Assembly (NCBI GenBank): GCA_025786725.1
Contig: JAHLTZ010000031.1
Location: forward strand, 248,001-312,000
DNA length: 64,000 bases
Direction of reading: 5' to 3'
Source: Syncephalis fuscata
Lineage: Eukaryota > Zoopagomycota > Zoopagomycetes > Zoopagales > Piptocephalidaceae
Part shown: positions 25,405 to 56,444 of the stretch, in pieces
Layout: each line of letters begins with the position of its first letter
Numbering within the stretch: position 1 is the stretch's first letter
Position numbers and translations under genes: made by a program
Notes under the pieces: model-generated
Database searches by the model: none
What the model saw: the letters and a program-made list of their open reading frames with translations, nothing else
What the model was told of the DNA's origin: nothing

Positions 25405-25930
25405 GCTATAATGTGATATATAATGGTATATAATGGTATATAGTGGTATATAGTGATATATAGTGATATATAGTGGTGCATAGTGGTGTATAGTGATATA
25501 TACTTTCTTATACTGCCTTACACCGCCTTATACCGTCTTATGGAGCTGTATGGAGCGGTACGAAGCGGTACGAAGCGGTATAAAGCGGTACAAAGCGGTA
25601 TAAAGCGGTACGAAGCGGTATAAAGCGGTACGAAGCGGTATAAAGCGGTACGAAGCGGTATAAAGCGGTACGAAGCGGTATAAAGCGGTACGAAGCGGTA
25701 TAAAGCGGTACGAAGCGGTATAAAGCGGTACGAAGCGGTATAAAGCGGTACGAAGCGGTATAAAGCGGTACGAAGCGGTATAAAGCGGTACGAAGCGGTA
25801 CGAAGCGGTATAAAGCGGTACGAAGCGGTATAAAGCGGTACGAAGCGGTACGAAGCGGTACGCCGTCTTATACCTTCTTACACCGTCTTATGGAGCGGTA
25901 CGCCGTCTTACGCCGTCATATAATGGTATA
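25405..25930. repeat. 10-bp / 20-bp tandem satellite
   Basis: The core at about 25551-25860 is made of 10-bp units CGAAGCGGTA and TAAAGCGGTA, alternating mostly strictly to give a 20-bp higher-order unit, around 31 ten-mers. The left flank (25405-25500) is TATAGTGGTA-type repeats. Both edges hold variants in the opposite sense (TACCGTCTTA, CACCGTCTTA), close to the reverse complement of the core unit. Confidence 0.92.
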
Positions 25931-27860: not shown

Positions 27861-27978
27861 AACTACGTTCATTGCGCCTAGAAAGCACCGGATCCCGTCC
27901 GATCTCCGAAGTTAAGTTAGGCCGCGCTTCTGTAGTACTGCGGTGGGGGACCACGCGGGAATGAGAAGTAATGTAGTT
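27861..27978 (+). rRNA. 5S ribosomal RNA
   Basis: About 118 nt. The conserved loop AGAAAGCACCGGATCCCGTC is present, as are GATCTCCGAAGTTAAG and GTAGTACTGCGGTGGGGGAC, all hallmarks of eukaryotic 5S rRNA. Terminal sequences AACTACGT and ATGTAGTT form the closing helix. No T-run follows before the tRNA, which starts 9 nt later. Confidence 0.95.
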
Positions 27979-27986
27979 CCAAGCTA

Positions 27987-28058
27987 TCTCTGTTAGTATA
28001 GTGGCAAGTATACCCGCCTGTCACGCGGGAGACCGGGGTTCAATTCCCCGACAGAGAG
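27987..28058 (+). tRNA. tRNA-Asp (anticodon GTC)
   Basis: 72-nt cloverleaf: acceptor TCTCTGT/ACAGAGA, anticodon arm CCCGC-CTGTCAC-GCGGG, and T arm CGGGG/CCCCG with GGTTCAATTCC as B box. No intron. The discriminator base is G. Confidence 0.97.
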
Positions 28059-28061
28059 CTC

Positions 28062-44182: not shown

Positions 44183-45252
44183 CTAAGCCATTAAACTAGT
44201 AAAAATACTGGTCACTGCTACAATGCCAAATGTAGCAATGGTAGGTAGAATTGAGCCATTAGCGCCGCTACAGTCTGGGCACGATGCACCGCCAAGATAA
44301 AGAGAAAATTCCTTGGAGAAGGTCATAAGACGGCCGGCTGTTTCGGTGACGTTGTTACGACCACGTTCGTCATAAATGTAAAGGTTGTATGAACCAGCAG
44401 CTAGCGAGAAGCCAGCGGCTTGGGCATCCCATGCACCAGTATCCCAATTGAACTTTGATGGATTGCTATAGCCGACCGTGCCAATAATAAAGAAGTTTTT
44501 ATTTGCACGAGCAATTTCAATGGTCACGTTCTTTGGCTTAATTCTTAAGGTGGTCTCGTCGTATTTCCACTGGAAATTGATAACTTCACCAATACGGAAT
44601 TTTGGTGTTTGTTGCCAAATGAATGCTGGTTTTTCCAATGTAAGAATCGAGGGAGGATCATCAAAATTGATATTATCTTCATCTGATCCACTGCTGCTAT
44701 TGCCATTGCCGTTACTATTGCCATTACTGTTACTATTGCCATTACTGTTGCTATTGCCATTACTGTTGCCGTTGCCATTACTGTTATTGCCATTACTGTT
44801 GCCGTTGCCGTTGCCGTTACTATTGCCGTTGCCGTTGCTATTCTATTGCCGTTGCCGTTGCTATTGCTATTGCCGTTGCTATTGCTATTGCCGTTGCTAG
44901 TTGCCGTTGCCGTTGCTATTGCTATTGCCGTTGCCGTTGCTATTACTATTGCCGTTGCCGTTGCTATTACTATTGCCGTTGCTATTGCCATTACTGCCTG
45001 TACCACTGCTGTTTTGTGGCGCTATTTATCACAATGTTAGTAAGTATATATTGTCAAATGAGTAAAGCATAGATTTAAATAAACCAATGCAAATCAAAGG
45101 ATAAACTTACAACGTGCAAGTAGATTGACTGAATGTCCACTAGCTGCAGTGGCAGACACTAGGCCGTCTGAAAGATTGGACTGTGCATTAAACACAGCAA
45201 GAGCAAGAACGCACGCCACCAAAGTGGTGCGTCCAAATAAAAGTTTAATCAT
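44183..45252 (-). CDS. GPI-anchored DUF7137-like surface protein, copy 1
   Basis: Signal-peptide exon from 45252 (MIKLLFGRTTLVACVLALAV) ends ...NLLAR and joins to SPQNSSG. A long tract of S/N/G codons (about 44690-45000) follows, then FDDPPSILTLEKPAFIWQQT and the DUF7137 fold: KFRIGEVINFQWKYD, VGYSNPSKFNWDTGAWD, GSYNLYIYDERGRN, F-S-K-E-F-S-L-Y. It closes with CPDC and a hydrophobic GPI-addition tail (ILPTIATFGIVAVTSIFTSL). Such proteins sit on fungal plasma membrane or wall. In-frame continuity is lost inside the S/N/G repeat (near 44840 and 44900), probably by repeat-length error. It is a tandem duplicate of 46116-46962, sharing the ...AR-S-P-Q-N-S junction. Confidence 0.8.
44690..45000. repeat. 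S/N/G-coding minisatellite
   Basis: Tandem 6- and 9-bp units (minus strand AACGGC, AATAGC, AACAGT) encoding Ser-Asn-Gly. They make a flexible stalk between the signal peptide and the DUF7137-like domain. Internal length changes break the frame in this assembly. Confidence 0.85.
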
Positions 45253-46115: not shown

Positions 46116-46962
46116 CTAGCACCATGTTACAGCAATAGCAGCTAGTGTTATAATTGTTGGTAATAGTAAATGTTGTATTGCTTCAAAACTTAGATCACCA
46201 ACCATGCTTGACTTGCTGTTACGACGCAGTGACGGTGCAGCCGATTCTAGACAAGCAACACAAATACCAGAGCCAGGATTATAGAGATAAAAGTACGTGC
46301 TACTGTATGGCGATAAACGTCCATTGGAGCTAGTGCCATTACCGTCTCGACCACGCTCATCAGAAATAAACAGATAGTAGCGCTCCTCTGTAAGCAGATA
46401 GTTTTGGTCTTGGTCGTTCCATTTTGACGTCTCCCATGTGAACGTCGTTGGTTGGTAGCTGATATTGGCAATGGTAACGTATTGGCGTCGGTCTCGTGTT
46501 ATTTCAAAAGCCAAATATCTTGGTGCAATATGAAGATATTCATCGTATTTCCACTTGAAAGTAATATTGCTGCCAATAGCGTATCTTGGCACTTCTCCCA
46601 TAGTAAGTGATGGCTGCTCCATAATAAGTCGTCCAGCAGGCTCATCCTTTTTTACTGGCCCCGCATCTTGATCTGTATTTTCGTCTTTTGTATCGTTTTT
46701 GGATGGTTTAGTTTCTTGTGCCTTTGCTTTATCTTTATCTTGTTGCTTTGCATTATTTTTGTTTGGAGTGGGGTCACTATTTTGCGGAGCTATGTTGTTG
46801 TTGTAATTAATAAAGTTAATAATCATTATTGCCATTTTAATCATAACAAATATACTTACATCGAGCAAAAATATTACGGTGTGCGTCTGTTTCTGCCGCT
46901 ATTGCAATAACTAGACAGAAAAGTAGCACCGCAACATAGATTAGCGGTTGCTTCTGAAACAT
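46116..46962 (-). CDS. GPI-anchored DUF7137-like surface protein, copy 2
   Basis: Signal exon from 46962 (MFQKQPLIYVAVLLFCLVIA) ends N-I-F-A-R and joins to SPQNSDPTPNK. The stalk here is K/D/E/T-rich rather than S/N/G. The fold has LIMEQPSLTMGEVPRYAIGS, ITFKWKYDEYLHIAP, ANISYQPTTFTWETSKW, YYLFISDERGRDGNG and S-S-T-Y-F-Y-L-Y, with a C-x2-C pair. The C-terminal hydrophobic GPI signal is HLLLPTIITLAAIAVTWC. The paralogue at 44183-45252 has the same exon boundary and module order. Different stalk chemistry suggests divergence in wall spacing or adhesion. Confidence 0.82.
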
Positions 46963-53595: not shown

Positions 53596-56444
53596 TTATG
53601 GATTAGCTGTATTTATAAATAAATATGTTGCATGTCATATAGTTAATGTATAGATTAGCAATATAAAATATAACTTACCTTCTATTAGTATTAAGTTATT
53701 GGTACACAAAATAAATAACATGTAATTAGTAAGTAACCAATTAATATGAAATGCTACTTACGGCCTATTAGTATTAAGTTGTTAGTACACATGATGCATA
53801 ACATGTAATTAGTAAGTAATCAATTAATACACAATACTACTTACATTCTATTGATATTAAGATGTTGTTGAATACAGTATATAGTATAAATTAGCGCATG
53901 TTCTATTGATATGCAATACAACTTACCTTCTATTATTATTAAGTTGTTAATAGATACAGTAAATAGCATGTGGTTAGGGAGTATCCAGCTAGTATAAAAT
54001 ATAACCTACTGTCTATTAATATTAAATTATTGATGAGCACAATACATGGTATATAATTAATATGTATTCAGTTAGTACATAACACAACTTACTGCCTATT
54101 AATATTAATTTGTTGATGCATATAGTAAATAGAATGTAATTAATATATAATCAATTAATATACAATACTACTTACAATCTATTATATTAAGTCGTTGATG
54201 CATACAGTACATAATATATAATTAGTAGATAGTTAGTTAATATAAAATATCGGGGACGTTGCTAGCCCAGTTGGTAAGGCAGCGTCTCCCGAGCTGAAGG
54301 CTCCGGGTTCAAACCTCAGTTTGAATCAATCCTTAAGTGGAAAATCCCCCCCTCCAGTTTTCTCTAGTTAACAAATTGCAAACCAGAACCCAATAAGTAG
54401 GTCCGGAAACAAGACCTTGGCCAGAATAGCCGAGGAAAACCCAATTGGGACCAACTTCAAGAGAATAGTGCTGTGTAGCACCATTTAAAGGAAGATGGCC
54501 CCCGTGTAAAATCTATATGGACCAGATTTTGCGCAAAAACGTGGCAGTCCACCCGTTAAAAGTTTGGAAAAGTCCAAATATAGTGGGAAGCAGCGCAAAT
54601 TCTTTAATTATGCGCAGCGGGGGCTCACAAGCTCTTCAAAATAAAAAAATAAATAATATAAAATATCACTTACTGTCTATTATATCAAGTTAATTCATAC
54701 AATGAGTAGCATAGTTAATGTATAGTCAGTTAATATACAAAACCACTTACATTCTATTAATATTAAATAGTTGGCACATCAGTGAATAACAGCTAATATA
54801 TAGTCAGTTAATTTACAATATTACTTACCACCTATTAATATTACATAATTAGTATAAGCAGTAAATAACAGTTGTTGTATAATCAGTTAATATACAAAAC
54901 CACTTACAAACTATTAATATTAAATAGCATAGTTAATATATAGTCAGTTAATATACAATATTACTTACTGACTATTAATATTAAATAAGTACAATTAGTA
55001 AATAGCATAGTTAATGTATAGCCAGTTAATATACAATACCACTTACACCCTATTAATATTAAATAGTTGGTATAGTTATTAAATAGCATAGTTAATATAT
55101 AGCCAGTTAATATACAATACCACTTACTAACTATTAATGTTAAATAGTTGATATAGTTATTAAATAGCATAGTTAATATATAGTTAATTAATATGCAATA
55201 CAACTTACAGGCTATTAATATTAAATAGTTGGTACAATCGTTAAATAGCATAGTCAATGTATAGCCAGTTAATATACAATACCACTTACGACCTATTAAT
55301 ATTAAATAGTTGGCACAATCATTAAATAGCATAGTTAATGTGTAGTCAGTTAATATACACTATAACTTACGACCTATTAATATTAAATAATCGACACAGT
55401 CAGTAAATAGCAGTTAATATATAGTCGATGGATATACAATATCACTTACCACCTATTAATATTAAGTTATTGGTACACACAATACACGATATATAATTAG
55501 CCAATGCCCAGTTAATATACAATACCACTTACAATTTTCTAATATTAAGTTGTTGATATACACAGTGCATGATATGTAATTAGTGAGTGATTGGTTCATA
55601 TACGATACAACTTACTTCTTTCTGTATTAAATTGTCCACACAGTACAAAATATATAATTAGTGCATAGTCAGTGAATATACAATATTACTTACTAACTAT
55701 TCCATCAAGTTATTGATGCACATAGTGTATGGTATATAATTAATTTATGAGTAAGCAACATACAATACGACTTACCGCCTATTATTATTAAGTTATTAAT
55801 ACACACAGCGCATAATATATAATTAGCCACTGTACAATTAGTATACAATATAACTTACATTGTTCTAATATCAAGTCATTGATACATACAACACATAATA
55901 TATAATTAGTTAATACTCAGCTAATATACAATACAACTTACCCACTATGGCATTAAATTGTTGATACACATAATACATGATATATGATTAATTTATAAGT
56001 CATCAATATACAATATCACTTACAGCCTATTATTATTAAGTCATTGATACACATAGCGCATAGCATGCAATTAGTGCGTAATCAACTAATATACAATATA
56101 ACTTACAGTCATCTAATATTAATTTGTTGATAGATACAGTATATGACATATAGTTAATGTATAGTCAAGTAATATATCATACAACTTACACCCTATTAAT
56201 ATTAAATAAACGGTACAATTAATAAATAGTATAGTTAACGTATAGTCATTTAGTATACAATACAGCTTACTGGCTATTATAATTATTAGTTAGAAATACT
56301 GTTAGTAAACAAAATATTATGACATATTTATTGTTATTGTAACACACCATCACGGCGAACTAAGGCCGGTTTAGCATCAACCATGGATGTACTAGCCACA
56401 ATAGCCACGACAATGGTGCAAACAACGGCAATGGAAAGCTTCAT
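53596..56444 (-). CDS. Secreted Cys-rich peptide gene built of 28 microexons
   Basis: Predicted 67-residue precursor. Exon 1 (56348-56444) encodes a signal peptide (MKLSIAVVCTIVVAIVA...) and a short pro-part with a dibasic RR. It ends with one base of a codon at a GTGTGT donor. Then come 28 microexons of 3 nt (24 of them) or 6 nt (4: 56107-56112, 55859-55864, 55616-55621, 55533-55538). Each is bounded by an AG acceptor (mostly ...TAATAG) and a GTAAGT donor. The last exon starts at 53606 and stops after three residues (TAA 53596-53598). In this phase the 35-residue mature region is open, basic, and has six cysteines spaced C-x3-C-x5-C-x7-C-x3-C-x3-C. All introns are phase 1. I do not recognise the peptide family; a defence, signalling or effector role is only speculation. 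Confidence 0.82.
53607..56347 (-). repeat. Array of 29 homologous introns (about 80-bp unit)
   Basis: Successive introns share sequence along their length: GTAAGT, then a block like TATTGTATATTAACT, an AT-rich middle with ATTAACTATGCTATTTA in one subgroup, and a 3' end like TATTTAATATTAATAG. Lengths from first to last are 74, 78, 77, 80, 79, 77, 80, 79, 72, 77, 80, 76, 78, 78, 78, 78, 75, 58, 76, 75, 74, 495, 80, 80, 80, 79, 80, 80, 72 nt. The 495-nt one carries the SINE. Neighbours in 54911-55380 are most alike. Confidence 0.85.
54238..54667 (+). mobile_element. tRNA-derived SINE with 14-bp target duplication
   Basis: Body 54252-54653, about 402 bp. The head resembles a tRNA: A-box-like TAGCCCAGTTGG (54263-54274) and B-box GGTTCAAACC (54306-54315), 31 nt apart. 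The body is unrelated to the flanks and higher in GC, and ends in an A-rich tail (AAAATAAAAAAATAAAT). It is flanked by a perfect direct repeat TAATATAAAATATC at 54238-54251 and 54654-54667. It lies in the opposite sense to the host gene, wholly within one intron. Confidence 0.92.
56348..56444 (-). other. Signal-peptide exon of the microexon gene
   Basis: 97 nt: 32 codons plus one base. Hydrophobic core, small residues at the likely cleavage zone (S-T-S-M-V-D-A), then K-P-A-L-V-R-R-D. The donor GTGTGT at 56347-56342 leaves phase 1. The alternative donor 2 nt further (phase 0) gives an open but cysteine-free peptide and is disfavoured. Confidence 0.85.

Follow-up and report, generated by a model that had tools for sequence, protein, structure and literature searches.

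How is a secreted peptide encoded at a locus where the sequence between a signal exon and a terminal exon appears to be divided into exons of only three or six nucleotides (nt)? This question is raised by a gene on the minus strand (positions 53596 to 56444) of a 64,000-nt stretch of the genome of Syncephalis fuscata (Fungi, Zoopagomycota, Zoopagales; assembly GCA_025786725.1, contig JAHLTZ010000031.1, positions 248,001 to 312,000), referred to here as the window. A preliminary description had listed 28 microexons at this locus, all bordered by an AG acceptor and a GTAAGT-like donor (one GTAGGT, one GTAAGC), with about 96 coding bases in total. On re-reading, all 28 were found where they had been placed and with those borders; 24 are 3 nt and four are 6 nt long, which makes exactly 96 nt. 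AG lies upstream of each of the 28, and the donor is GTAAGT in 26. Together with the 97-nt signal exon and the 11-nt terminal exon, the microexons yield a predicted coding sequence of 204 nt, for a product of 67 amino acids plus stop.

The signal exon ends with KPALVRRD and one base of the next codon, the RR being a Kex2-like processing site. Script-based splicing gives ARYDCLEQCVKRKNCGRPFRFICEYNCNKECQ as the mature sequence that follows RRD, to which the terminal exon adds ANP and the stop; the mature part has six cysteines. On the minus strand of 53596 to 56444, AG and GTAAG[TC] are separated by three nucleotides 23 times and by six nucleotides 4 times, and any other gap from 0 to 30 occurs 0 to 2 times. 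On the plus strand of the whole window the three-nucleotide form occurs 2 times. The array is a tandem repeat with a period of approximately 80 nt.

Our answer is that the window gene is very probably one of a large S. fuscata family in which secreted, cysteine-rich peptides are encoded by arrays of frame-neutral, one-codon exons. A conventional first exon would supply the signal peptide and the RR processing site. The mature peptide, mostly about 30 to 45 residues long, would then be assembled from as many as 42 consecutive exons, of 3 nt except for a few of 6 nt, that begin at codon position 2, and a short final exon would bring the stop. The introns of about 78 nt between the microexons would be removed by ordinary GT-AG splicing, as we infer from the sequence. 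The product would be secreted and cysteine rich, and many members would have the framework C-x2/3-C-x3-C-loop-C-x3-C-x3-C.

Microexon arrays and intronless paralogues across the genome

The motif TAATAG-N3-GTAAGT occurs 2,716 times genome-wide, compared with 5 times in a backwards control. With four nucleotides in the gap it occurs 14 times (control, 20) and with six nucleotides 15 times (control, 7). The looser form CAG-NNN-GTAAGT shows a weaker excess (554 versus 172 backwards), in which ordinary sites are mixed in. When the genome was searched for matches, the signal exon scored at 40 of 205 candidate places and the window peptide at 150 of 314; the identities of full-length matches to the peptide are approximate because the query was inexact around microexons 5 and 11, although its leader and RR were correct and the list of loci is therefore hardly changed.

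We fetched 42 further loci at which the match was confined to the signal part, in batches of 20, 4, and 18. A microexon array followed the signal exon in 39 of them (19, 4, and 16, respectively). Of the three loci without a full array, L022 has only six microexons, and L067 and L073 lack introns. For seven of the last 16 arrays (six stretches shorter than 1 kb, and L058 at a contig end), only the first 7 to 9 microexons are covered. Counts across arrays were made on a set of 33, window included, from which L022 and the seven short loci were dropped and in which some arrays are cut by the fetched stretch; these arrays have 15 to 42 microexons each. In the window gene and its paralogues the signal exon is 94 or 97 nt long with a hydrophobic leader, as read by eye from the translations. 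The exact TAATAG-NNN-GTAAGT motif is present at 646 of the 913 3-nt exons in the 33 arrays, and at that rate the 2,716 genomic sites extrapolate to approximately 3,800 3-nt exons genome-wide. Counts for the family include near-identical copies of loci.

The intronless loci L067 (C278:52600-53435) and L073 (C1:523450-524300) have a family-type signal peptide and different mature parts, with few cysteines in one and none in the other. The family leader thus precedes mature peptides of more than one type.

Another 24 loci (L009 to L012 and L033 to L052) gave longer matches that extend, wholly or in part, through the mature part. An open frame from the same start was found in 23, L051 being the one in which none was found, and each of these frames encodes, unbroken, a signal peptide and a cysteine-bearing mature part. 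For example, the mature part of L009 has the pattern C-x3-C-x3-C-x8-C-x3-C-x3-C. The 3' flank is common to intronless and microexon genes, as is the 5' side where it was read further upstream. A word-based search of a protein collection, with a query whose first row was inexact, found 12 relatives, all from S. fuscata, and no homology to schistosome microexon genes (MEGs). The deposited models P0015 and P0023, and a large part of P0020, correspond to intronless loci.

Reading frame, cysteines, and exon order

The window gene and its relatives served as the training set for the gene finder, later versions of which presuppose the frame and exon lengths in multiples of three. The first chain finder was blind to frame. 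In the 20 genes tallied with it (L022 left out), exons of 3 nt numbered 553 and those of 6 nt 25; the 11 remaining exons comprised five of 2 nt, three of 28, one of 30, and two of 59. Thus, the 3-nt and 6-nt exons and the one 30-nt exon were symmetric, versus 10 with lengths not divisible by three. In the final chain the frame of the signal exon was imposed, lengths were multiples of three (up to 21 nt), and weak acceptors were allowed. This chain gave 913 exons of 3 nt and 51 of 6 nt in the 33 arrays, 964 in total, with introns of 70 to 83 nt in 905 cases, a TAG acceptor in 948, and a GTAAGT donor in 832. Joined in the frame of the signal exon, the arrays have 2 stops and 171 cysteines in 982 codons; the other two offsets give 86 and 6 stops and 39 and 7 cysteines. 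The microexons begin at codon position 2, a phase that the chain imposes and that the stop and cysteine counts of the three offsets back.

Tests based on cysteines were made on 18 arrays, a set from which L017, L021, and L022 were excluded as incomplete or collapsed and which did not yet include L053 to L066. The pattern C.{2,3}C.{2,5}C.{4,25}C.{3,4}C.{2,4}C was present in 11 of the 18 spliced arrays, whereas 500 shuffles of exon order gave a mean of 0.008 and a maximum of 1. The spliced arrays contain 106 cysteines in total; in the shuffles the mean was 51 and the highest number 67. The same pattern fits 12 of the 23 intronless peptides. Aligned to the best intronless peptide, the window mature part scored 62, which none of 200 shuffles reached, and seven of the 18 genes beat all 200 shuffles in such alignments. 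Between the window gene and its close paralogue L013, introns have changed at 54 of 2,070 sites and exons at 1 of 96, the one change being in a cysteine codon and synonymous. The frame, the cysteine content, the dependence on exon order, the paralogues of like build, and the intronless paralogues, all of them properties of the sequence, support the proposal in the preliminary description that the mature peptide is split into 3-nt and 6-nt exons.

Rates of exon versus intron change were also considered as proof of coding and were rejected for that purpose. Within genes, exon letters differ at 0.56 to 0.60 of sites where introns differ by 3 to 4% and saturate (at about 0.7) at an intron difference of 5%, so that only close pairs are informative.

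Several observations weigh against the reading of the arrays as coding. The array of L022 is collapsed, and that of L026 has an internal stop. Exons with weak acceptors were recovered only after acceptors had been scored less strictly, with lengths and phase prescribed. The cysteine pattern was defined after the peptides had been viewed, and the 18 arrays are mutually related; for example, the window gene and L013, near relatives within the set, specify an identical peptide. Seven of the 18 arrays and 11 of the 23 intronless peptides fall outside the pattern. In the alignments to intronless peptides, 1 to 19 of the 200 shuffles did as well as the other 11 genes, the worst cases being L026 (19), L015 (11), L025 (7), and L024 (6). 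Among 21 pooled close gene pairs, which overlap among related genes and are not independent, exons changed more (21 of 288 sites) than introns did (181 of 6,462), and the exon changes, 7, 5, and 9 by exon position, show no excess at codon position 3. This result is not what simple purifying selection would give and points to diversification or recombination. Searched for by protein words, the mature part had no match in the genome, and 23 joined spliced arrays had no contiguous genome copy, although both were empty answers with no positive control; thus, no retrocopy that would prove the junctions was found. In addition, the deposited models P0016 (at L061), P0017 (at L015 and L004), and P0021 (at L069) correspond to array loci, and none follows the array. 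They run from the leader into contiguous array DNA and match microexons at most for the first ones.

It is possible that the exons are real but are used combinatorially, with skipping yielding many peptides from each gene, as has been suggested for schistosome microexon genes. Because the exons are nearly all multiples of three even when no frame rule is applied, any subset of them would stay in frame, and in one study the symmetric microexons of schistosomes are taken as favoring alternative splicing (PMC4671649). However, the cysteine framework emerges with all exons included (11 of 18 arrays), and frame-neutral units are equally expected under selection on the gain and loss of genomic units. 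We consider combinatorial use a real but doubtful possibility.

Origin and rearrangement of the arrays

Within a gene, neighboring introns are approximately 78% identical and distant ones 74 to 75%, compared with 62% for shuffled letters; the introns of one gene are homologous, as introner copies also are. Units of one 3-nt exon and its intron appear to duplicate and recombine. Among the related genes compared, the array ends correspond in order, and the middle, which encodes the loop between cysteines 3 and 4, is the most variable part. Between related genes, for example L019 and L024, units match in order over the first eight or nine and over the last six; in less related genes (the window gene versus L016 or L023) the best unit matches are mostly out of order. 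The middle units of such related genes, as seen unit by unit in L019, L015, and L028, are near identical within the gene and code for the loop between cysteines 3 and 4. For example, units 12, 14, and 17 of L019 all have the exon CAA and one identical 78-nt intron, and units 15 and 19 both have TCT and another common intron. The middle units have thus been duplicated along with their codon, and the array behaves like a minisatellite that gains or loses one codon per repeat.

Unit pairs were compared among 530 units of 20 genes, for introns of equal length only. Within genes, the exon was the same in 0.545 of 11 pairs with an identical downstream intron and in 0.062 of the 1,163 pairs whose introns had more than 10 mismatches. 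Judged by the downstream intron alone, exons frequently differ even at 2 to 4% intron divergence. Between genes, when both flanks were close and the downstream intron was identical, 0.926 of 27 exons agreed. The close pair L031 and L026 has 29 versus 24 aligned units, and L026, with its internal stop, may be decaying. Few units differ between L053 and L054.

Two pairs of very similar arrays lie on one contig each, L053 and L054 at C2:225200-229000 and C2:244600-248300, and L055 and L056 at C1:475200-478500 and C1:531300-534500. In the same or opposite orientation, these pairs resemble segmental duplications, and they reveal the units that are the first to change.

We read the unit comparisons as intron-intron recombination by which units are duplicated, lost, and exchanged, while selection favors new loops. 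Since each unit is frame neutral, an array can gain, lose, or swap single codons. On balance, we lean somewhat toward regarding the units as codon cassettes, in which recombination between near-identical introns would insert, delete, or swap single residues in the loop between conserved cysteines. This would amount to single-codon exon shuffling, a diversity-generating system of roughly 3,800 3-nt exons (by extrapolation).

Introner elements place many near-identical short introns in one genome, and many near-identical short introns are also present in S. fuscata. An introner-like element might have inserted introns serially into an intronless gene, the 3-nt spacing arising from the insertion mechanism rather than from duplication of units. 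The within-gene intron identity of 74 to 78%, the presence of some identical introns beside different exons, and the existence of intronless relatives, which include the most divergent rows of a flank tree rooted at its midpoint only, are consistent with this possibility. However, in the introns compared, all from this family, the similarity is among those of one gene and family, which follow each other head to tail, each with a 3-nt exon. Identical introns tend to carry the same codon, and blocks are repeated. Insertion alone also leaves exon lengths of 3 or 6 nt in one phase without a reason, because a spliced insertion would be frame neutral anywhere. Serial insertion is therefore an unlikely alternative to the duplication of units.

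The flank tree was built from flanks and signal exons, with 22 microexon and 21 intronless rows; L017 and L021 were left out, L027, L038, and L041 had no anchor, and L051 is absent. It requires two changes of type, versus 14.5 with shuffled labels, and a single microexon clade is not rejected (approximately unbiased test, P = 0.53). Its middle is poorly resolved, with 16 of 38 inner branches open. The tree weakly suggests that the intronless form is probably older than the fragmented form and, as weakly, that fragmentation into microexons probably had a single origin. One alternative is that the fragmented form is ancestral and gave rise to the intronless genes through cDNA copies. A common 5' side, signal exon, and 3' flank around a continuous middle are the trace expected of cDNA-templated intron loss, and the tree is unrooted with respect to this question, with L033, L036, and L050 unresolved among the microexon rows. 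Yet most rows of the tree fall together by type, few changes being needed, and the search with the 23 spliced arrays, an empty answer with no positive control, gave no contiguous copy. We consider an origin of the intronless genes as cDNA copies improbable, somewhat more so than serial insertion.

That the array is a noncoding intronic minisatellite, with the signal exon joined directly to the terminal exon and the 3-nt intervals as repeat by-products, is very improbable and was rejected on the frame, cysteine, and exon-order evidence: the array is indeed an approximately 80-nt tandem repeat, and the window's signal and terminal exons do join in frame by eye (three residues, then stop), but closely similar units differ far more in the three nucleotides than in the introns, the joined codons have few stops and a cysteine excess in the right frame alone, the cysteine framework depends on exon order, intronless relatives have the same type of mature peptide, and the sole exon change between the window gene and L013 is synonymous.

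The intron after microexon 21 of the window gene contains a repeat of approximately 400 bp, on either side of which lies a 14-bp direct repeat (54654-54667 and 54238-54251); at the corresponding position the intron of L013 is 79 nt long. From 60 candidates, 43 genome matches to the repeat scored, of which 41 are near full and two, fragments, were dropped. Within 4.5 kb downstream of a listed family signal exon lie 24 of the 41 near-full copies, compared with about 1 expected by chance, and 23 of these 24 have the orientation of the signal exon. The other strand of the repeat has, by eye, a tRNA-like head; ARAGORN calls no tRNA there.

TABLE 1 Features of the window gene and of other parts of the window
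Feature	Position	Strand	Remarks
Signal exon	56348..56444	-	ATG, signal peptide, dibasic RR (Kex2-like); donor GTGTGT; many genome copies
Microexon 1, CCA	56271..56273	-	
Microexon 2, GGT	56190..56192	-	
Microexon 3, ATGACT	56107..56112	-	
Microexon 4, GCT	56024..56026	-	
Microexon 5, TGG	55942..55944	-	
Microexon 6, AACAAT	55859..55864	-	Missed by first chain finder
Microexon 7, GCG	55776..55778	-	
Microexon 8, TTA	55694..55696	-	
Microexon 9, AAAGAA	55616..55621	-	Weak acceptor ATACAG; right in final chain only, misread or skipped by two earlier chain finders
Microexon 10, AAAATT	55533..55538	-	
Microexon 11, GTG	55450..55452	-	Sole exon unlike L013 (GCG); synonymous Cys change
Microexon 12, GTC	55371..55373	-	
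Microexon 13, GTC	55290..55292	-	
Microexon 14, CCT	55209..55211	-	
Microexon 15, TTA	55128..55130	-	
Microexon 16, GGT	55047..55049	-	
Microexon 17, TCA	54969..54971	-	
Microexon 18, TTT	54908..54910	-	
Microexon 19, GTG	54829..54831	-	
Microexon 20, AAT	54751..54753	-	
Microexon 21, ACA	54674..54676	-	
Repeat element	54252..54653	-	Resembles a short interspersed element by eye; 14-bp direct repeat on both sides
Microexon 22, ATT	54176..54178	-	
Microexon 23, GCA	54093..54095	-	
Microexon 24, ACA	54010..54012	-	Donor GTAGGT
Microexon 25, AAG	53927..53929	-	
Microexon 26, AAT	53845..53847	-	
Microexon 27, GCC	53762..53764	-	
Microexon 28, AAG	53679..53681	-	
Terminal exon, CTAATCCATAA	53596..53606	-	Includes stop; 3' flank common to intronless paralogues (L009)
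Two adjoining open frames, DUF7137 domain (PF23585)	44183-44842, 46116-46898	-	One has a long Asn/Gly/Ser repeat
5S rRNA gene, then tRNA-Asp gene 7 bases on	27861-28059	+	
20-bp tandem repeat	25554-25860		15.4 copies, 96%

Known systems, predicted product, and significance

In recursive (ratchet) splicing an acceptor and a donor stand back to back around a zero-length exon. Acceptor and donor almost adjoin in the S. fuscata arrays as well, but here three coding bases would be kept at each step. One explanation considered for why 3-nt exons work was a merged branch-point and acceptor element; it was dropped because such an element does not stand out clearly in candidate ordinary introns of the window.

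Schistosome MEGs, as characterized in one report, have a long first exon with the signal peptide, mostly symmetric central microexons, and a long last exon, and they encode small secreted parasite proteins; their microexons are shorter than 36 bp, and 26 of 33 in MEGs 26 to 32 are symmetric (PMC4671649). Similarly, the S. fuscata family has its signal peptide in a long 5' exon (by eye) and a central coding part made of exons shorter than 36 bp (964 of 3 or 6 nt in 33 genes). In contrast to schistosome MEGs, its exons are nearly all exactly 3 nt, its introns, about 78 nt long, are homologous and arranged in tandem, and it is a fungal family with relatives found only in S. fuscata. The bicycle genes of aphids, fast-evolving putative effectors, have numerous small internal exons, almost all of which begin at codon position 2, with approximately 17 exons on average, and the excerpts of that article make no mention of single-codon exons (PMC9168663). 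The S. fuscata microexons also begin at codon position 2 (as imposed by the chain), and the likeness is one of architecture; the single-codon exons appear to set them apart. Single microexons are known from fungi, for example, the Xlr2 microexon of Trichoderma (PMC11121469) and a 1-nt exon in CYP621A of Fusarium (PMC12940212). S. fuscata genes would likewise need very small exons, but these form arrays, whereas the excerpts describe lone exons in ordinary genes. The preliminary description had named schistosomes and aphids as precedents. It had also stated that no array of back-to-back 3-nt exons was known; a literature search, with most subscription journals and bioRxiv outside its scope and the articles seen in part, turned up the microexon genes of schistosomes and aphids and single fungal microexons, likewise found no such array, and returned no paper that combines the terms syncephalis and microexon.

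The predicted peptides have a signal peptide, a dibasic site, and a mature part that is mostly about 30 to 45 residues long, usually with six or more cysteines and with helical spacing. A structure of the intronless paralogue P0015, modeled from its single sequence, has helices at residues 36 to 46, 52 to 58, and 63 to 68, with block values of the predicted local distance difference test (pLDDT) of 74 to 80 from residue 31 on. Judging from this model and the cysteine spacing, the product of these genes most likely folds as a helical hairpin that is stapled by disulfides and has a variable loop. It counts against this proposal that the model is of an intronless paralogue, was made from one sequence with a mean pLDDT of 66, and had no match among solved structures (best E value, 2.8).

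Syncephalis species parasitize other molds. Because the peptides appear to be secreted, fast changing, and amplified, the likeliest function would be an effector-like or toxin-like role against fungal hosts or rivals.

If the arrays are spliced as read here, exon size would extend down to one codon, in up to 42 consecutive exons, across a large family of one fungus. It would then have to be asked how the spliceosome handles a donor three bases past an acceptor, dozens of times per transcript. Intron gain, tandem repetition, and protein diversification may be a single process in this family, which would make it a concrete example. Standard annotation can miss such genes, as exemplified by the three compared deposited models, which depart from the arrays. 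The arrays may conceal a repertoire of cysteine-rich, secreted peptides in a mycoparasite lineage.

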